From: Pseudobdellovibrio sp.
GTDB lineage: Bacteria; Bdellovibrionota; Bdellovibrionia; Bdellovibrionales; Bdellovibrionaceae
Direction: 5' to 3'
NCBI GenBank assembly: GCA_023701385.1
Contig: JAMPXC010000003.1
Span: forward strand, 1 to 64,000
DNA: 64,000 nucleotides
Positions 15,235 through 26,416 of this stretch are shown here, in pieces; position 1 is the first letter of the stretch; every line of letters begins with the position of its first letter. The notes under the pieces are model-generated. The model made no database searches. It was given only the letters and a program-made list of their open reading frames with translations, and was not told the origin of the DNA. The position numbers and the translations under genes are program-made.

Positions 15235-16101
15235 ATGTTCGAGCGTATTTATATTGAAATCAGCAATATCTGTAACCTGCAGTGTACGTTTTGCCCTGAG
15301 GTTGTGCGCGACAAAAAAGTGATTTCAGTTGAAGAATTCAGAGCTCACGCAATTCAAGCTAAACCGCTGGCAAAGCAAGTTTGTCTGCATTTAATGGGAG
15401 AGCCATTAGGTCATCCACAGTTTGCTGAAATTGTTAAAATCTGTGACGAGTTAGAGTTGAAAATATTTTTAACAACGAATGGCACTTTAATTAAACGTCA
15501 TTCAGAAACTATTTTAAACTGGAAACATTTAGAACAAATTAATTTTTCAGTTCATTCGTATTTTGCAAATACATCACGTCAGATCTTAGAGCAGTATCTA
15601 AGTCCAATCTTAGATTTCTGCGAGAAATCATTAGAAAAGAAAAATGATTTTTATATCAACCTTCGCCTTTGGAATTTAGCTTCTGTAAACGCACAGTTAG
15701 ATCAAAATCTGCAAGTTTATGATTTAGTCGAGAAGCGCTTTAATGTTTCATTAAATGAAAACGTCGATGTTCGCGTGCAGAAATCGAAGAAGGTTAAAGA
15801 TAAATTGTACTTACACTTTGATACTGAATTTGAATGGCCTACTTTAAAACGAGAAGTGCTTTCAACTAAGGGAACTTGCTACGGTATGCGAAAACAGCTC
15901 GCCATTCATGCCAACGGTGACGTAGTCCCATGCTGTTTAGATAAAGAAGCCGTATTAAAGCTCGGATCAATTAAAAACGGCGATTCACTTCGCGATATTA
16001 TGAAGTCAGACCGCGCCCAGAAAATTAAATCAGGATTTGAGCGCGGTGAGCTTTTAGAAGAGCTTTGTCAGAAGTGCCAGTACGTTGAACGATTTAGTTA
16101 G
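15235..16101 (+). CDS. Radical SAM protein with SPASM-like C-terminal domain
   Basis: The 288-residue protein has the radical SAM cluster motif CNLQCTFC at about residues 13-20, a conserved MGEPLGHP strand and LTTNGT. The Cys-rich C-terminal region (GTCYG, VPCCLDKE, CQKCQY) is typical of SPASM/auxiliary cluster proteins. Such enzymes often modify peptides or proteins or make cofactors. No precursor peptide gene is visible nearby, so the substrate is unknown. The ribosome site is weak. The gene overlaps the convergent membrane-protein gene by four bases. Confidence 0.82.
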   Translation: MFERIYIEISNICNLQCTFCPEVVRDKKVISVEEFRAHAIQAKPLAKQVCLHLMGEPLGHPQFAEIVKICDELELKIFLTTNGTLIKRHSETILNWKHLEQINFSVHSYFANTSRQILEQYLSPILDFCEKSLEKKNDFYINLRLWNLASVNAQLDQNLQVYDLVEKRFNVSLNENVDVRVQKSKKVKDKLYLHFDTEFEWPTLKREVLSTKGTCYGMRKQLAIHANGDVVPCCLDKEAVLKLGSIKNGDSLRDIMKSDRAQKIKSGFERGELLEELCQKCQYVERFS

Positions 16102-16678: not shown

Positions 16679-16728
16679 GTTAACTGAAATTAAGTATATG
16701 TCGAAAACTAAACATAGAGGTGCATCCT

Positions 16729-18420
16729 ATGAGTAGTCTAGATAAGCAAATTCGTTCGCGTCGTTTTAAAGTTAAAAATGATTCAGCTTTAAAGTTAGTT
16801 GTTGATTATATCAACGGTGATCAAGTTGAGTTTTCAGTTGTTGAGTGTTCTCAAACAGGTCTTAAGTGTCACACTACTTATGCATTCTCTGAAGAAGATA
16901 AAAACAATCCTGGGCAAATAGTTTCGGCCTCAAAATTAGTATGGGACTCTAAAGAATACGGATTGGGTCGTATGGTTATTAGACGTATACAGGCAGATGG
17001 TTCTGGCGCTTCTGTAGCGTTTTCAACGATTGATATTAAAGTACCAGTTAACTCACATTTAACTAAAGTTTTAGATATTCGCCTAGAAGTAGAAGACGAT
17101 GCTAAAACAGAAGAATTGAGTTCGGACAAATTTTCGTTAGCTCACTTTGTAGAAAGCGAATATTCGAATGTGGATCTTTTTGATCGAATGAGAAAATTTG
17201 ATGTGTTTCGCGCTGAATGGGAACGCAACAAAAAATATGGTTATAAAACGGTACGTGAATCTTCTAAGGGTGAAAGAGTTAATTTATCACGAGCTAGAAA
17301 AGGCAATCGTAAAGATTATATCGTAATGGGCTCTAATGACTATTTAGGGCTTGGTGCTCATCCTGAGGTTGTTAAGGCAGCCCAAAATGCAATGAATGAA
17401 TATGGATTCGGCTCTACAGGATCGCCAGTTACGACTGGAACAACTGATTTACATCTTGAACTTTGCGATCAAATTGCGAAAATTCACAAAAAAGAAGCTG
17501 CTATTTTATTTAACTCTGGTTACGCAGCAAATATTGGTATTATTTCTGCCGTGACTGCTCCGAATGATTTAATTGTTGCGGACATGTTATGTCATGCATC
17601 TATTCAAGATGCGATGCAAATGTCAAAAGCAACATCACGTTTTTTCAAGCATAATGATGTAGCTCATCTAGAGGCGATTCTTCAAAAAGAAAGACAAAAC
17701 TATAATGGTTGTCTAGTGATTACTGAAGGTGTTTTTTCGATGGATGGAGACACTGCAAAACTAGACGAAATTTTCTATGTAGCGCGCAAGTATAATTGCC
17801 GTATTATGGTAGATCAAGCTCATTGCTTTGGAGTCGTTGGGCCTAACGGTTTCGGAATCTGCGAAAAGTTTAACTTACTTAAAGAGACTGATATTATTAT
17901 GGGAACATTTTCTAAAATTTGCGGGGGTATCGGAGGATTTGCTACTGGTTCAACTGAACTAATAGAATGGCTTCGTGCATTTAGTCGTGCACAAGTTTTC
18001 TCTGTAAGTTTGCCACCGTCAACGGTTGCGGCGGTCAGCAAATCCCTAGACATTTTTGTTAACGATAAAGATCTAGTAAAGCGCCTACACTCAAACATTC
18101 AGCATTTTGTTAAAAATTTAGAATCAATTGGCTACAAATTTAAAGATACTCAAGAAAGCGCAGTAGTTCCAGTAGTTGTTGGAGATGAAAAAAAACTGGG
18201 AGAAATGTATCAAAGTTTATTAGATGACGGCGTACTTTGTATTCCAATTGTCTATCCGGCGGTGAGTAGAAAAAATTGCCGCTTCAGATTTACAGTGATG
18301 GCAACGCATTCGAAATCGGATCTGGACTATGCTACGGCGTGTTTGGAAAAAGCAATGTTAAAGGCTGGTTTTTCGTTCTCTCAAGCAGAGAAAGAAGAGC
18401 CAAAGAAAAAAGCAGCGTAG
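16729..18420 (+). CDS. PilZ-like domain fused to PLP-dependent alpha-oxoamine synthase
   Basis: The 563-residue protein has a PilZ-like N-domain (about 8-122: RSRRF and ECSQTGL, both degenerate forms of RxxxR and D/NxSxxG). A complete alpha-oxoamine synthase follows at about 150-555: GSTGSPVTTGTTDLHLEL, CHASI with His 289, VDQAH (Asp 362, His 365), and MGTFSKICGG with the PLP-binding Lys 396. Family enzymes condense an amino acid with an acyl-CoA; they include KBL, AONS (BioF), serine palmitoyltransferase and CqsA/LqsA autoinducer synthases. The RAQVFSVSLPP region is most like serine palmitoyltransferases, the end like BioF. The ATG at 16729 is chosen over GTG 16720 because AGAGG sits nine bases before it. 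The kinase gene starts three bases after the stop. Confidence 0.88.
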   Translation: MSSLDKQIRSRRFKVKNDSALKLVVDYINGDQVEFSVVECSQTGLKCHTTYAFSEEDKNNPGQIVSASKLVWDSKEYGLGRMVIRRIQADGSGASVAFSTIDIKVPVNSHLTKVLDIRLEVEDDAKTEELSSDKFSLAHFVESEYSNVDLFDRMRKFDVFRAEWERNKKYGYKTVRESSKGERVNLSRARKGNRKDYIVMGSNDYLGLGAHPEVVKAAQNAMNEYGFGSTGSPVTTGTTDLHLELCDQIAKIHKKEAAILFNSGYAANIGIISAVTAPNDLIVADMLCHASIQDAMQMSKATSRFFKHNDVAHLEAILQKERQNYNGCLVITEGVFSMDGDTAKLDEIFYVARKYNCRIMVDQAHCFGVVGPNGFGICEKFNLLKETDIIMGTFSKICGGIGGFATGSTELIEWLRAFSRAQVFSVSLPPSTVAAVSKSLDIFVNDKDLVKRLHSNIQHFVKNLESIGYKFKDTQESAVVPVVVGDEKKLGEMYQSLLDDGVLCIPIVYPAVSRKNCRFRFTVMATHSKSDLDYATACLEKAMLKAGFSFSQAEKEEPKKKAA

Positions 18421-18423
18421 ATA

Positions 18424-20280
18424 ATGCACGAGTTTTTGGTTTCACTTTTACTAAGCTTCTCTAGCTTTTTAGGTATTCAGGCGGTACCCGCGAATACTGA
18501 CGGCTGGAGTATAAGTAAAATGTGGAACCAAGTCGGAGAAAAATGGGAATTTTCAGCTTCTAGCTCTGAAGTAGCTAACGCTTGTGGGGAAGGAAAGTCT
18601 TTAATTTTTCCACAAGTTGTACATGGAATTCATACAATTCACATTAATAACGAATTATTTCTACAAACTGGGGATGATTCGTTTTCTAAAACTTCTGCGT
18701 TTTATTCAAGAGCTGTAGTAGATTGTAAGTATATTAAAAAGAATGCTAAAGTAGATTGGCATGTCATTACGTATTCAAAATACTTTGCAAGAATTGATAA
18801 ATTTCCTTCTGTAGAGAAGACTACGGCTAAATACTATTTTTTCGACGTTATTTTAAATATTTTATCAGCAGGCTGCTTATTAATTTTAGCCATGTTCTCT
18901 CTATTTATTTTTTCTCGTCGCGTAGAGAATAAATATGTTTTAAGTCTCTTTACAGGCTCTGTTTCGTTTGCAGCTTATTCGGTATTAACGACAGCAAATA
19001 TTTTTGATTTTGATATTAGAATGATATATGCGCACAAAGCAGCAGATATATTCGTGTGGATAGGTTCGTTCAGTTACATTTATTTTTTTCATAAATATGG
19101 TTATTTAGGTAAAATTGAGCTTCGATCATTCATAGCTGCCTTCGCCTTGGGTGAATCTTTAATTATTTTCGGTGGAAGCCCAGATGTTGTTCAGCTAGGT
19201 ACAACAATTCCCATTCCATTTGCTTTTATTTGTCTTTCATCTTTTTTAATTCATTCTATAAATGAAGGATTTAAAAAAGGGTTTGATCGAAACATTAAAT
19301 TGGGGATTTTTTCAATTTCTATTTTTGTTTTAGCCGGAATGAATGATTTACTGCATATTACTGGTCTAATTGATTCGTACATGATTATGCCATTAGGATC
19401 AGTTGCCGGAGTTTTCTTCCTTGCGGCTGCGGTAAATCAAAATATCGAAGTAACTTACGTAGAGCGTGATGAGCTTTTAGTTAATCTTGAGAATAAAGTA
19501 GTTGAAAAGACGAAGCATCTAGAAGAGGCATTAACTACTTTAAAATCGACACAAGCAGAGCTTGTGCAGTCAGCTAAATTAGCATCTCTTGGTACGGTTA
19601 GTGCCGGAATAGCCCATGAAATCAATAATTCTATTAATTACGTTAGTGGTGCAATTATTCCGCTCGAGAAAAAAGTTTATGCCATGATACCTGAAACTGC
19701 TGATCGAAAAATGATAGAAAAACTGTTCGGCGCAATTAAAGAAGGCACTTCGTTGACGGTGGATATCGTTAAAAGTTTAAGGAATTTTACAGGTTTAAAT
19801 CAGGCAGAATTTAAAGAAATTAGAATTCAGGATTCGGTTTACTCTATTCAAACCATTTTAAAAAGTAAGCTTAGAGGAATTGATTTTAAATATGAATTTT
19901 CGGCAGATTGTATAATTCATGGGAATTTAGTTGGTCTTAATCAAGTATTTATGAATTTAATTTCTAACGGTCTTGATGCGTTAGATAAAAATGAAAAATT
20001 TATACATATTAAAGGTACTGTTGACGGTAACCAGATTGTTATTTCAGTCAAAGATAATGGTAAAGGCATAAAGCCAGAAATTCTTAATAGAATTTTTGAT
20101 CCGTTTTTTACGACAAAAGATGTTGGTAAAGGAACCGGCCTGGGACTGCATATCGTTTCTAAAGAGATTGAGCGACATGGTGGTCAAATTAAAGTTTTTT
20201 CAGAATTAAACGTGGGAACAGAATTTTTAATTACACTTCCTGCATTAGTCGATTCCAACAAGATAAGGGAGGCCGCATGA
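18424..20280 (+). CDS. 7TM sensor histidine kinase
   Basis: The 618-residue protein has a signal or anchor segment (1-20) and an extracytoplasmic domain of about 115 residues. Seven hydrophobic helices follow at about 137-340 (a 7TMR-DISM-like layout), then a coiled coil (345-385). The kinase core has H-box [13 protein letters not shown] (His 398), N-box [16 protein letters not shown] and GTGLGLHIV. It starts three bases after the oxoamine synthase stop and overlaps the response regulator by four bases (ATGA), so all three should be made together. A likely role is sensing a ligand at the membrane and phosphorylating the neighbouring regulator. That the ligand is the product of the synthase is inference. 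Confidence 0.9.
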
Positions 20281-21479
20281 AGCCCTTAGTAGTGTATGTA
20301 GATGATGAACCTATGAATCTAACAGTTTTCGAAGCTGCAATGCCCGAAGACTGGGAAATACAAGTATTTGATAGTCCACTGAAAGCTCTTGATGCTCTTA
20401 CTAAACTAAATCCTTGTATTGTTGTATCTGATCAAAAAATGCCAGGAATGGTCGGTGTTAATTTTTTAGAAATAGTAAAAAGAACTCACCCGTCAACAAA
20501 AAGAGTAATTGCTACCGGTTATTCAGAAGAAGATTTAGTGGTAGATTCAATCAGAAAGGCCGGAGTACATGATTATATCAAAAAACCGTGGGATGTAGAA
20601 GACCTTCTCCATAGACTAAAATCAGTCATGGAGACGTATAACTTAGAAAAAGAGTTATTCGAGAAAAATAGTTTGTTAGAAAAACAGAATCATGAACTTC
20701 AAAAGATGACTGAAGATTTAAAAAAAGCTAAAGCAATTGAAGAGCAAGCACGTAAAGAACTTGAAGCGTGGGCGCCGCCGTTTGTGCTATCAGCTATCCA
20801 AAGTAATTCTCTAAAGTTTCCAATGAGAAGAGATTTGGCCTTAATATGTTTTGATATTATTAACTCTTCTGAAACTCACGATATCACAATTGATGGGGCA
20901 TCAGTTAGGTCTGTTATCTTAAAAGGATTCTCTGAGTCGGTATTGCGTCAAGGTGGTTGGCGCGAGTCACACGCTGGAGATTCGGCGTATGCTCACTTTG
21001 GATTACTTGAATCAACTTCTAATCCTGTAGAGTCTGCATTAGCTACCGCAACAGAGTTTAGAAGTTTTTTAAGAGCATTAAATTTAAAATATGGTTTAAA
21101 AATTGAATGTGGGATTGGATTACATCTGGCAAAAGACGTATCTATTAACCTGCATGAAATTGAAATTCAAACCCTTCGTGGAACTATCAAGCAGAAGTCA
21201 TTTGACTCAACATCGCCAGATGTTGATCTAGTTCACCGTTTAGAAAGCTTTACTCATCAGTTACCAGGTTCAAATGTTGCGATTTCGGAGTCATTTGCAA
21301 AAGTAATTATTGATAAATTACCACAAGCTAAAGATCTTGGTAATTTTCAGCTAAAAGGTCAAAAAGCACTTACAAAAATTTATTTAAAGCCAAGCGATCA
21401 AGTCACTGAACAGCAAATTATTGAAATTAAGGAAAAGTCTGCAGCAAGTGGTGACTCTCTTGATAAAAAGACCGCATAA
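20277..21479 (+). CDS. Response regulator with class III nucleotide cyclase-like output domain
   Basis: The 400-residue protein has an N-terminal receiver (Asp 10 and 11 acidic pocket, phospho-acceptor Asp 52 in VVSDQKMPG, Lys 102) and a coiled coil of about 45 residues. A class III adenylate/guanylate cyclase homology domain follows at about 184-370: CFDIINSS with metal Asp 193, HAGDSAYAHFG with metal Asp 235, DVDLVHRLES, and the closing LKGQKALTKIYL. The transition-state Asn of the usual VNxAxR motif is Asp 317 here, while Arg 321 is kept, so activity may be low, altered or lost. The output may be a second messenger controlled by the upstream kinase. Confidence 0.85.
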   Translation: MKPLVVYVDDEPMNLTVFEAAMPEDWEIQVFDSPLKALDALTKLNPCIVVSDQKMPGMVGVNFLEIVKRTHPSTKRVIATGYSEEDLVVDSIRKAGVHDYIKKPWDVEDLLHRLKSVMETYNLEKELFEKNSLLEKQNHELQKMTEDLKKAKAIEEQARKELEAWAPPFVLSAIQSNSLKFPMRRDLALICFDIINSSETHDITIDGASVRSVILKGFSESVLRQGGWRESHAGDSAYAHFGLLESTSNPVESALATATEFRSFLRALNLKYGLKIECGIGLHLAKDVSINLHEIEIQTLRGTIKQKSFDSTSPDVDLVHRLESFTHQLPGSNVAISESFAKVIIDKLPQAKDLGNFQLKGQKALTKIYLKPSDQVTEQQIIEIKEKSAASGDSLDKKTA

Positions 21480-21486
21480 TTGTTAA

Positions 21487-22437
21487 ATGACCCAGCACGA
21501 AGCCGAACTAGAAAAATTTAAAACGCTCCATAACCGGTTTCGTGTGCAGCCGGGATATCAGTCTATCGATCTTCACGGCTTTACGATGTCAGAAAAACCA
21601 GACATTCTTTTTACAGCACTTGTTCATGGTAACGAAGTGATCGGTCTTCAAGTGTTAAATCTCTTTTTAGAAAAAACACTTAAATCAAATCACAAAGCAC
21701 CGTATACGTTTGCGGTTCTTTTATGTAACGTTCCGGCTTACGATAAAAATCAACGCTTTATAAATAAAGATTTAAATCGTAGTTTTCAGGCACCTATCGA
21801 TACTCCTAAAATTGAAAAAGGGCAGGAATACTACCGAGCACAACAGGTTGAAGACGTGATACAAAATTTAAAGCCACGTTTTATCATCGATCTTCACCAG
21901 ACTACGGAGCCAACTTTGTCGCCGTTTTTTATGTTACCAGAAGAAGAATCTCTGGTCAGGTCGGCATCAGTGATCAGCAAAGAATGGCCTATTATTACTT
22001 TTGATCCGTCTGGATTTTCGAAAGACGGGAAGACCTTAATGGAATTTGCTAGGGGAGAGAAGATCCCTGCCCTAGTTATTGAGATCAGTCAGAATGGATT
22101 TGATTTAAACCTGGCTAAATTGATCTGTGAACAGCTTTTCTATTTAAATGCTGAACTTATCATAGCCCCACCGAAAAAAGATGACGTAAGCTATTTTAAG
22201 ATCACTCAGCATCTCACTAAATTTATTGTGGGCTCAGAGCTTATGCCTGGTTTTCAAAATCTGCAGTCAGTAAAAGAAAATGATATTTTAGGAATCACTC
22301 CGGCCGGCAATGAATACTTTTGTCCAGCTGACGGCGTATTTATTTTTCCTAAGTACGGCAGTCAGGCCGAAGTGTCGACTGAACTTGGGTTAATTGCGAC
22401 ACCCCGTAATCTTTTACAATTAAAAGCTGATAGTTAG
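21487..22437 (+). CDS. Succinylglutamate desuccinylase/aspartoacylase (AstE/AspA) family zinc hydrolase
   Basis: The 316-residue M14-like hydrolase has zinc-binding HxxE in LVHGNEVIGL, NKDLNRSF, IIDLHQTTEP (third zinc His) and VIEISQNG. Family members cleave N-acyl amino acids or similar amides. The exact substrate is not predictable. It lies seven bases after the cyclase-type regulator, possibly in the same transcript, which hints at hydrolysis of an acyl-amino compound near the oxoamine synthase; that link is speculative. It overlaps the convergent porin-like gene by 18 bp. Confidence 0.8.
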   Translation: MTQHEAELEKFKTLHNRFRVQPGYQSIDLHGFTMSEKPDILFTALVHGNEVIGLQVLNLFLEKTLKSNHKAPYTFAVLLCNVPAYDKNQRFINKDLNRSFQAPIDTPKIEKGQEYYRAQQVEDVIQNLKPRFIIDLHQTTEPTLSPFFMLPEEESLVRSASVISKEWPIITFDPSGFSKDGKTLMEFARGEKIPALVIEISQNGFDLNLAKLICEQLFYLNAELIIAPPKKDDVSYFKITQHLTKFIVGSELMPGFQNLQSVKENDILGITPAGNEYFCPADGVFIFPKYGSQAEVSTELGLIATPRNLLQLKADS

Positions 22438-24087: not shown

Positions 24088-25230
24088 TTAGTCGCCGTTA
24101 TGAATTTGTTGTTGCGGATATTCGTTTTCGTCTTCATCAGCAGAAGCTTTATTTAATTCATCGATTGTGCGGCAAGCTCTAGGAATTCTCCAATTATCAC
24201 GCTTTTTGATACACATTTCTAGCTCAGTTAACATCGAATCAAGCTTATTATAGGTATTATCAACGTATTTTTCGACTTCTTCCATGGCATCGTTTTGTAA
24301 ATCACCCGCTGGAACAAATGGTAAACCGAAATTAGCCATAATTAACTCTTGAATACCACGTGAAGTACGACCATTTCCATCAGCGAAAGGATGTGTGCTT
24401 ACAAACCATTTTTGAACAACCGCAGCTAATTCAATCGGTGCTAAAACCGGTGCGCCACGTTGGTAAGCTTCAAGATTCGATTTAATAAAGATACGAATCC
24501 ATTCGATTTGATCGCCCACATGGTTTGATGGGCTATAACCAATAAAAACACCATTTCCATTACGGCAAGTGGCTGATGAAACAAACATCCCCGACTTTAG
24601 GTCGGCGCGACGGGGATTAGGGCCATTTTCTTTTTTTACGATATCTGAAAACTCAACACCTAATAAAGACTCCCAGCGCTTTTGAAAACGCTCCATTGAA
24701 TCTTCAGAGCGTTTGATACCCTGACGATAGTTATTTTCATTTTCATTACCCGCGCAAAATCCTACACCTTTATCGCTATTCGCGCGAAATTCACCAGGCT
24801 TTTTACTTTGATCTGTGATTTTATCTTTAATACTGGTTGCGCCATCAGTTAATAAAACCGTATTAATATGTGCAAAAGTATATTTATCAATCGGTTGGCT
24901 AAATAAGATATTTTGATTCTGTTTATTTCTAAATAAAGAATCAATTCCGCGCTCCCATACGCGCCAAGTCGCCGGAGCTGGATCATAAATTTCTAGGGGA
25001 GCCTTTTTAAATGTTTTGGCTTTTTCCCAAGAGTTACGATCGATAAAACGAAGTACTTTGTACTCCCCGATTTCGTCAACATCGACACCGATTTTAGCGT
25101 ATTCTTCACGAATTTTAGCCATACGATCCTGCATCCAGCAGTCGCGCGAAAACTTTTCGATAACAGCATCACAAGCTAAAGCTTGTTGTGCACTTAAGAA
25201 AATGATGATCGTGGCTAAAAGCTTTTTCAT
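24088..25230 (-). CDS. Exported Fic-domain protein (putative AMPylator)
   Basis: The 380-residue protein has a Sec signal peptide (MKKLLATIIIFLSAQQALA, cleavage before Cys 20) and a Fic core. The active-site loop HPFADGNGRTSR (His 280 to Arg 291) matches HPFx[D/E]GNGRxxR exactly. A PGEFR strand (about 145) and the flap region (GVFIGYSPSNHVGD) are also present. Fic enzymes transfer AMP or other phosphate-containing groups to target proteins. I see no [S/T]xxxE[G/N] inhibitory motif in the protein. Export is the unusual part. It lies 15 bp downstream of another exported protein, so the pair is likely co-expressed. Confidence 0.9.
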   Translation of the reverse strand: MKKLLATIIIFLSAQQALACDAVIEKFSRDCWMQDRMAKIREEYAKIGVDVDEIGEYKVLRFIDRNSWEKAKTFKKAPLEIYDPAPATWRVWERGIDSLFRNKQNQNILFSQPIDKYTFAHINTVLLTDGATSIKDKITDQSKKPGEFRANSDKGVGFCAGNENENNYRQGIKRSEDSMERFQKRWESLLGVEFSDIVKKENGPNPRRADLKSGMFVSSATCRNGNGVFIGYSPSNHVGDQIEWIRIFIKSNLEAYQRGAPVLAPIELAAVVQKWFVSTHPFADGNGRTSRGIQELIMANFGLPFVPAGDLQNDAMEEVEKYVDNTYNKLDSMLTELEMCIKKRDNWRIPRACRTIDELNKASADEDENEYPQQQIHNGD

Positions 25231-25245
25231 AAAAAATCCTTACTA

Positions 25246-26262
25246 CTATTTAATGCAGTCGAAAGTTTTTGAACGAAGATCTAATAATTCATTTTGGTCT
25301 ACATATGTGCTGTTAATAACATTTTTGATTTCAGAGTAAGTTGATTTCATCAATGTTTTGTCTTTTGAATTGTAAGCTGTTTGATATTGTTTTTCTAATG
25401 GACGTAATGGTTGTAAAATACTAACTAATTTTCTATTACGAGATAAAGCTTCTGTTTCTTGGGCGTCGAACTCAACACCAGCGGCATCGTTCCAGTAAAC
25501 CATAGTAACTGATTTGATTGCCGTCGTTGTTTGCGCGCCACCTACATAAACTAAAGCCGAGTGGTGAATTTTACCACCGTTAGTAGCTGTATTACAGAAC
25601 ATTGAAGTCCCCGCTTGCCAGCCATATTCAGTCATCGCGATACCTTGTTGATTAAAGATATTGTGAACGATCTTTCTAAAAGCTGTGTTTTGCGCTTCGG
25701 CCATATATTGTAAAGTGTCGCGCCAGAAACCCTTTTTCTTAGCTTGAAATAATTTAGCTACATCAGCCTGTTTCATTCCTGTTTCAGAAATAATGGTTTG
25801 TAATGTTTCAGGGCGTAACGTTACCGAATCAATTAAATCTAAATAGCGAGTACCTGCATTGAAAGTCACTTCAATCATCGTTGAGCCAAAGTTAGCGCCA
25901 GTATCAGCGGCAGCGGCCGGAGATGAAGCAAATGGATCAACCGCGAAATACACACCAAGACCTGCGTTAGCTAAGTATGTTGTATTATTTTTTAAATCCC
26001 AAAAGCTTGCGGCCATTTGTTTTACGCGGTTATTAACCATGTCGTAACGAGCGGCAGATTTTTTTAAAGATGTATTTTTAAGTTGGTTACCATTTAAATT
26101 GATACCGAAATAATGATAAAGACGCGTTTCGCGCGGAAGAGTTTTAATAGCTGGCTGTAGATCTTCAGTTAATAATTGCTGAGCCGAAGCCGCAAAAGCA
26201 TTTGATGACAGCGTTAAAGCAAAACCTAGGGTAAAGGCCTTTAATAGACGTGAAGATGACAT
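25246..26262 (-). CDS. Exported protein, possible ADP-ribosyltransferase-like fold
   Basis: The 338-residue protein has a signal peptide ending NAFA (about 24). The ATG at 26262 is used: AGAGGAG sits about five bases before it and the signal peptide then begins at once, while the longer frame adds 28 residues without a ribosome site. RLYHYFG, then LGVYFAVDPFASS and FGSTMIEVTFNAGTRYLDL, recall the first strands and the YFA motif of ART/PARP-like folds, but no catalytic Glu can be placed with confidence. It precedes the exported Fic gene by 15 bp. The function call is tentative. Confidence 0.7.
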   Translation of the reverse strand: MSSSRLLKAFTLGFALTLSSNAFAASAQQLLTEDLQPAIKTLPRETRLYHYFGINLNGNQLKNTSLKKSAARYDMVNNRVKQMAASFWDLKNNTTYLANAGLGVYFAVDPFASSPAAAADTGANFGSTMIEVTFNAGTRYLDLIDSVTLRPETLQTIISETGMKQADVAKLFQAKKKGFWRDTLQYMAEAQNTAFRKIVHNIFNQQGIAMTEYGWQAGTSMFCNTATNGGKIHHSALVYVGGAQTTTAIKSVTMVYWNDAAGVEFDAQETEALSRNRKLVSILQPLRPLEKQYQTAYNSKDKTLMKSTYSEIKNVINSTYVDQNELLDLRSKTFDCIK

Positions 26263-26416
26263 AATAGCTCCTCTTGGTTTTTGTAACCAAGAGGCTATTT
26301 TGCGATACCAAGGCCAAGCTAAAAACCACCCTATTTGAGCTGGCAAACAAGACCTGTATAACTGTTTTACAATGAAACGTTCTAGGCTGGCAGGGTGACT
26401 TCCCCGCCTTTAAGGA

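Follow-up and report, generated by a model that had tools for sequence, protein, structure and literature searches.

A conserved three-gene operon of the Bdellovibrionota with a PilZ-like/α-oxoamine synthase fusion, a membrane histidine kinase and a cyclase-like response regulator: a candidate chemical signalling module

What is the function of an operon in which a pyridoxal 5′-phosphate (PLP)-dependent enzyme carrying a PilZ-like domain is followed immediately by a membrane histidine kinase and a response regulator with a cyclase-like output? The question is raised by positions 16729–21479 of a stretch of Pseudobdellovibrio sp. DNA (hereafter the window: positions 1 to 64,000 of contig JAMPXC010000003.1, assembly GCA_023701385.1, 64,000 nucleotides in all), which derives from contig 79 of a 3.18 Mb draft genome; the organism belongs to the Bdellovibrionota. 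A first-pass annotation of the window had suggested a sensory circuit. The best explanation overall is a dedicated chemical signalling module, to which a probability of roughly 0.6 was assigned, and it is highly probable that the three genes form one functional module.

All three frames are intact and lie on the + strand. Gene 1 (16729–18420; open frame, domain matches and model) encodes a PilZ-like/α-oxoamine synthase (AOS) fusion of 563 residues, gene 2 (18424–20280; open frame and domain matches) a membrane histidine kinase of 618 residues and gene 3 (20277–21479; identified likewise) a response regulator of 400 residues. The stop codon of the synthase gene ends at 18420, three bases before the kinase ATG at 18424, and the regulator ATG at 20277 overlaps the kinase stop, which ends at 20280, in the motif ATGA. 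The start of the synthase was placed at ATG 16729 in preference to GTG 16720 because the former is preceded, 8 bases upstream, by AGAGG (16716–16720, + strand, direct reading), the likely ribosome-binding site. A promoter scan at the operon gave results no better than those from shuffled sequences. The nonsynonymous divergence (dN) of the trio coding sequences was low against a high synonymous divergence (dS) where dS could be estimated.

The complete trio was found in 14 further Bdellovibrionota genomes from at least eight families, the carriers being mostly uncultured relatives of predatory Bdellovibrio: 12 genomes (G003, G004, G008, G013, G020, G072, G085, G096, G262, G276, G318 and G347, two of them cut by contig ends), the Oligoflexales record L060 and G071, in which the regulator is convergent. 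Flanking genes are common only to the window and its sister species G013 and to the two copies of G102 (see below), leaving aside scattered paralogues (other kinases, for example); the recurrence of the trio with unshared flanks, G013 excepted, places the operon beyond chance. Among the 369 genomes of the phylum the synthase fusion was counted in 17 (one further match being weak), the kinase sensor in 20 and the regulator output in 16. Synthase and kinase occurred together in 16 genomes, synthase and regulator in 14 and regulator and kinase in 15, over at least eight family codes. The pairwise hypergeometric values (about 1e-20 to 1e-23; 2e-23 for the kinase sensor, present in 16 of the 17 synthase genomes) ignore the relatedness of the genomes. 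G102 contains two divergent synthase–kinase copies (L049 8549–13789 and L050 139–5397), in each of which a conserved convergent 230-residue receiver protein and a conserved gene for 315 residues replace the cyclase-type regulator; that synthase and kinase are kept together there in its absence was counted in favour of one signalling module. In G259 the synthase lies near kinase pieces, G021 and G323 carry kinase fragments or kinases at contig ends (the G021 piece being a fragment), and G103 and G086 hold distant sensor relatives only. Outside the phylum, synthase and kinase were seen at a contig end of the Zetaproteobacteria bin L065, where misbinning is possible. The tight packing described in the first-pass annotation and the conservation of the trio that it predicted are thus both borne out, as is the domain composition (AOS, HATPase_c, receiver and class III cyclase fold), the evidence for the N-terminal PilZ-like domain being weak but convergent.

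The sequence identifies gene 1 as an intact PLP-dependent α-oxoamine synthase. Residues 196–545 match PF00155 (E 1e-55), and the catalytic domain, delimited by profile matches, alignments and structure comparison (17314–18417, + strand), contains the PLP lysine K396 (codon 17914–17916), the stacking residue H289, D362, H365 and the carboxylate-binding R520, all of which are invariant in a twelve-member alignment. Among solved structures the best matches are serine palmitoyltransferase (SPT) and Kbl; the SPT of Sphingobacterium multivorum (3a2b) superposes with Z 46.5 and a root-mean-square deviation of 1.8 over 355 residues at 34% identity. Identity to SPT and Kbl structures is 32–35%, against about 22% to CqsA structures, which align at Z 39–40. 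Gene 1 nevertheless falls below the cut-offs for BioF (TIGR00858, 372.5 versus 426.45 bits), 5-aminolevulinate synthase (ALAS; TIGR01821, 262.5 versus 338.55 bits) and the equivalogs of Kbl (339.4 versus 460 and 294.6 versus 493 bits), SPT (330.2 versus 640, 319.3 versus 500 and 251.8 versus 670 bits) and the NCBIfam α-hydroxyketone synthases CqsA/LqsA (NF005526, 209.3 versus 428 bits). In a tree of 76 AOS domains, from which CqsA/LqsA sequences were left out, 21 fusion proteins stand on one side of a single branch (SH-aLRT 92), separate from BioF, Kbl and the epimerase- (CerR-)linked SPT-type enzymes; the long-branch row L031 also falls on the fusion-protein side. By this tree the synthase forms its own clade within the AOS enzymes. 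Beside that clade, on a very long branch, stands a 933-residue open reading frame of G021 (L058 9343–12144, − strand) in which a flavin adenine dinucleotide-dependent monooxygenase-like domain is fused to an AOS domain.

The catalytic domain is preceded by a PilZ-like domain (residues 1–118, 16729–17082, + strand) and by a linker that is conserved in the alignment (residues 119–195, SLAHFVESEYSNVDLFDRMRKF.., 17083–17313, + strand). Nearly all of 19 homologues keep R9, R12 and (D/N/E)39-x-S41-x-x-G44, followed by E76, G80, R81, D102 and P106; within the second PilZ motif, (D/N)xSxxG, S41 is invariant, G44 is nearly so and position 39 is mostly D or N (E in the window). When a profile of the 19 sequences was searched against all PDB chains, the matches at E<0.01 were solely PilZ proteins (YcgR and MrkH), with E values of 0.0016–0.006 for the alignments to their PilZ domains (5kgo and 5ejl). 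Alignment by hhalign to the PilZ domains of the same genome, which holds at least 14, gave E 7e-5 and a probability of 63%. In the AlphaFold model the N-terminus forms a beta barrel with a helix after it (a match of topology only; when gene 1 as a whole was compared with known structures, the matches were taken up by the AOS domain). Pfam PilZ matched none of 11 fusion members. Taken together, these observations point to a PilZ-like domain that has the DxSxxG-type motif and, in the model, the barrel of YcgR and MrkH and that differs from them in being fused to a metabolic synthase. Such a barrel probably acts as an allosteric input of the synthase, with cyclic di-GMP (c-di-GMP) as the first candidate ligand; actual binding of c-di-GMP is possible, at odds somewhat below even. 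No publication joining PilZ with an oxoamine synthase was found in the open-access literature searched, and a built-in second-messenger-type regulatory domain would, to our knowledge, be new among AOS enzymes.

For gene 2, hydropathy predicts a signal peptide, a periplasmic stretch of about 120 residues and seven transmembrane (TM) helices, after which come a coiled coil and the kinase core. The predicted periplasmic domain (about residues 21–143, 18484–18852, + strand; alignment and hydropathy) carries invariant W28, W34, C54 and C101. The helices (18853–19458, + strand) were located by hydropathy on the alignment and resemble 7TMR-DISM proteins; the PF07695 (7TMR-DISM_7TM) match is weak, being obtained for one of 16 kinase members (E 1.4e-4). 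The coiled coil and core (19459–20277, + strand; domain matches and alignment, HATPase_c E 2e-24) retain all catalytic residues, namely the phospho-acceptor H398 (AHEINN, codon 19615–19617) and the N, G1 and G2 boxes. The predicted architecture is 7TMR-DISM-like and not the 6TM design of CqsS (PMC4821796).

Gene 3 begins with a receiver domain (20277–20636, + strand; domain match E 3e-18, and alignment) in which D9, D10, the phospho-acceptor D52, T80 and K103 are invariant. A signalling coiled-coil helix (about residues 107–163, 20637–20765, + strand) follows in the AlphaFold model and leads to the output domain (20808–21401, + strand; structure matches and alignment). This output superposes on the class III adenylyl cyclases CyaC (1wc1) and CyaB (3r5g) with Z 21 over about 181 residues, Foldseek aligns the C-terminus to a class III cyclase with E 2e-13, and the motifs are those of class III and not GGDEF. 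Catalytic positions were assigned by the known class III sextet in mycobacterial numbering: D193 and D235 at the metal sites, S231 at the Lys site, D310 at the adenine site, D317 at the Asn site and R321 at the Arg site. All 14 trio regulators keep the metal aspartates and R321, and 13 of the 14 keep the adenine-site D310. The output has a class III cyclase fold with its metal sites kept; it shares with CyaC and CyaB the fold, both metal aspartates, the adenine-site Asp and the Arg, and it differs in being receiver-controlled and in sharing an operon with an AOS. The complete regulator of G322 (L207 8711–9940), a genome with neither synthase nor kinase sensor, has lost both metal aspartates (to G and R), which was taken, on this one case, to mean that the metal site is under selection solely in the context of the trio.

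From these parts a circuit may be proposed. Gene 1 would condense an amino acid with an acyl thioester, releasing CO2, to give an acyl amino-ketone, as expected from the chemistry of the family, and the PilZ-like barrel would gate this step allosterically, perhaps in response to c-di-GMP. The kinase would most likely read the product, or an envelope state that the product has changed, and would phosphorylate gene 3, as co-occurrence and operon structure suggest. Phosphorylation of D52 would set the coiled coil and thereby the metal–nucleotide site of a class III-like dimer, so that a cyclic nucleotide is made or bound. Of its two partners, the kinase accompanies the synthase more consistently, and this speaks for detection of the product or of its effect; the product of gene 1 itself as the kinase ligand is judged to have a little less than an even chance. 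A further step is speculative. In Bdellovibrio, Bd1971 is a c-di-GMP phosphodiesterase controlled by cyclic AMP (cAMP; PMC6717892), and the genome of the window encodes an orthologue (E 5e-123, with cNMP and EAL domains) as well as a CRP-type regulator. Given this orthologue, the regulator could be connected back to the PilZ-like domain by way of cAMP and c-di-GMP, the cyclic nucleotide from gene 3 lowering c-di-GMP and so feeding back on gene 1. The full cAMP/c-di-GMP feedback loop is improbable. An equally long shot is the new class of circuit in its entirety, in which a diffusible acyl amino-ketone made by a nucleotide-gated synthase is read by its cognate 7TM kinase, the regulator makes or binds another cyclic nucleotide and a Bd1971-type phosphodiesterase closes the circle.

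Several observations weigh against a signalling circuit of this kind. The first PilZ motif is RxxR, with invariant R9 and R12, instead of the RxxxR of YcgR and MrkH that is canonical for c-di-GMP; Ile, Ala or Met occupies the position of the first arginine of RxxxR. The output domain has Ser at the site of the catalytic Lys (His and Asn in one member each) and, in every regulator sequence, Asp at that of the transition-state Asn, at variance with CyaC and CyaB, and with these two positions changed the output may not catalyse at all; enzymatic activity is accordingly a matter of even odds. The periplasmic domain of the kinase is lacking in CqsS and LqsS, and the kinase may therefore read something else. 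Finally, G261 has the synthase without the kinase, and the Bd1971 orthologue is not operon-linked to the trio.

The alternative that survives best, although it is still unlikely, is a regulated lipid-biosynthesis operon, in which the synthase product is a structural membrane aminolipid (sphingoid-, capnine- or 1-deoxysphingoid-like) and no signal, the kinase monitors the envelope and physiology is adjusted through the regulator. The SPT structures rank closest in the search with gene 1 (E 5e-71, Z 46), with which the enzyme of 3a2b shares the AOS fold and all PLP and carboxylate residues, and the periplasmic domain of the 7TM kinase would suit envelope sensing. The pattern of divergence also speaks for it: between the window and L040 the AOS domain is 93% identical, against 58% for the PilZ-like domain, 48% for the periplasmic domain of the kinase and 46% for the regulator output (sensor regions, kinase core and output ranging over 46–61%), so that the AOS domain is near-frozen while the others drift, as expected of an enzyme whose product is fixed. 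In the signalling reading, too, the pattern would suit a constant product whose inputs and outputs adapt. Against these points, gene 1 lies under every SPT cut-off and departs from SPT in its PilZ-like fusion and in a GSTGSP motif in place of CAGSR; there is no lipid gene in the trio or common to its flanks; and in relatives the SPT-like gene that accompanies an epimerase and a lipid kinase lies outside the trio clade. A FemAB-like ceramide synthase was found in none of 14 trio genomes tested, with a positive Caulobacter control, an unrelated ceramide synthase being possible. The sphingoid base offered by the first-pass annotation as an alternative product thus gains no support, the SPT-type genes of relatives being separate as well.

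Other AOS genes were seen in the course of this comparison. In the family relative G044 an SPT-like AOS, an NAD-dependent epimerase and a YegS-type lipid kinase (L055 7054–10859, − strand) form a likely sphingolipid cluster apart from the trio. Elsewhere an SPT-like AOS is flanked by a GNAT protein on one side and, on the other, by one of about 245 residues with no NCBIfam or Pfam match (L045 3190–6531; L051 6904–10341, − strand), an arrangement that is kept in several Bdellovibrionota genomes. One record from the Kiritimatiellia (L067 7935–13049) contains an AOS, a FemAB-like acyltransferase, a histidine kinase and a receiver-PAS protein and is another case of an AOS beside a two-component system.

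Much less probable is that the operon is a diverged member of the CqsA/LqsA α-hydroxyketone quorum-sensing systems, with which the first-pass annotation had compared it. The comparison itself is sound in that the trio is clustered and is built on a three-component logic like theirs, Lqs being its nearest functional counterpart. In species having LqsR, the genes lqsA, lqsS and lqsR lie in one cluster (PMC3376566), so that the Lqs system of Legionella likewise combines an AOS-fold PLP synthase, a membrane histidine kinase and a regulator, and the Cqs system of Vibrio an AOS-fold signal synthase and a membrane histidine kinase. The AOS fold and the invariant K396 would also be expected of a member. 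Membership was rejected on the NF005526 score, less than half the cut-off, and on the low identity to CqsA structures given above. Seven TM helices with a periplasmic domain take the place of the 6TM design, the Cqs cluster has no cyclase-type regulator, and no PilZ-like domain has been reported on LqsA. As regards the output, which the annotation had regarded as foreign to these systems, its class III motifs do differ from GGDEF; it is less alien than was thought, since the output of LqsR has been reported to have a degenerate GGDEF-like fold, with no activity detected (PMC10653808), and this palm-type fold is loosely like the cyclase-like one found here. By the present analysis the trio shares the circuit logic of Lqs and Cqs and lies outside that family.

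A housekeeping enzyme (BioF, Kbl or ALAS) standing beside a two-component system by chance is largely refuted: gene 1 is the only AOS of its genome at E<=1e-20 and scores well with the BioF and Kbl models, yet it lies under all curated cut-offs, and its distribution is patchy (5 of 14 genomes of the genus). Roles in biotin, threonine, haem or ceramide synthesis are unlikely here because bioB was not found in the genome, no threonine dehydrogenase (Tdh) exceeded its cut-off, a full-length hemL of the glutamate pathway is present and the FemAB-like ceramide synthase is missing. A natural control is provided by G071, where BioF and BioB are encoded by neighbouring genes, as are Kbl and Tdh, and the trio synthase comes in addition to these; the 7-keto-8-aminopelargonate synthase that the first-pass annotation had named as the outcome contrary to its own proposal fails on this ground and on the lack of bioB. 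No full-length hemL was found in the near-complete genomes of the genus-mates G003, G004 and G008; the window genome and G013 have one.

An AstE/aspartoacylase-like gene at 21487 and a radical-SAM gene at 15235 look operonic with the trio. Both were considered as parts of the module and were rejected, because they are common only to the window and the sister species G013. Near the operon, at 24088–25230 (− strand), lies a gene for a secreted-looking Fic-domain protein (HPFADGNGR; Pfam Fic E 9e-8), and the gene adjoining it (25246–26346, − strand) has no Pfam match.

The operon is compact and conserved, and as a chemical signalling module it looks like an undescribed circuit. If this is true, an AOS with a built-in second-messenger-type domain would place the synthesis of a small molecule directly under the control of a nucleotide or dinucleotide. 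If the product of gene 1 is a signal, predatory and related bacteria would possess a chemical language beyond the known autoinducer families.

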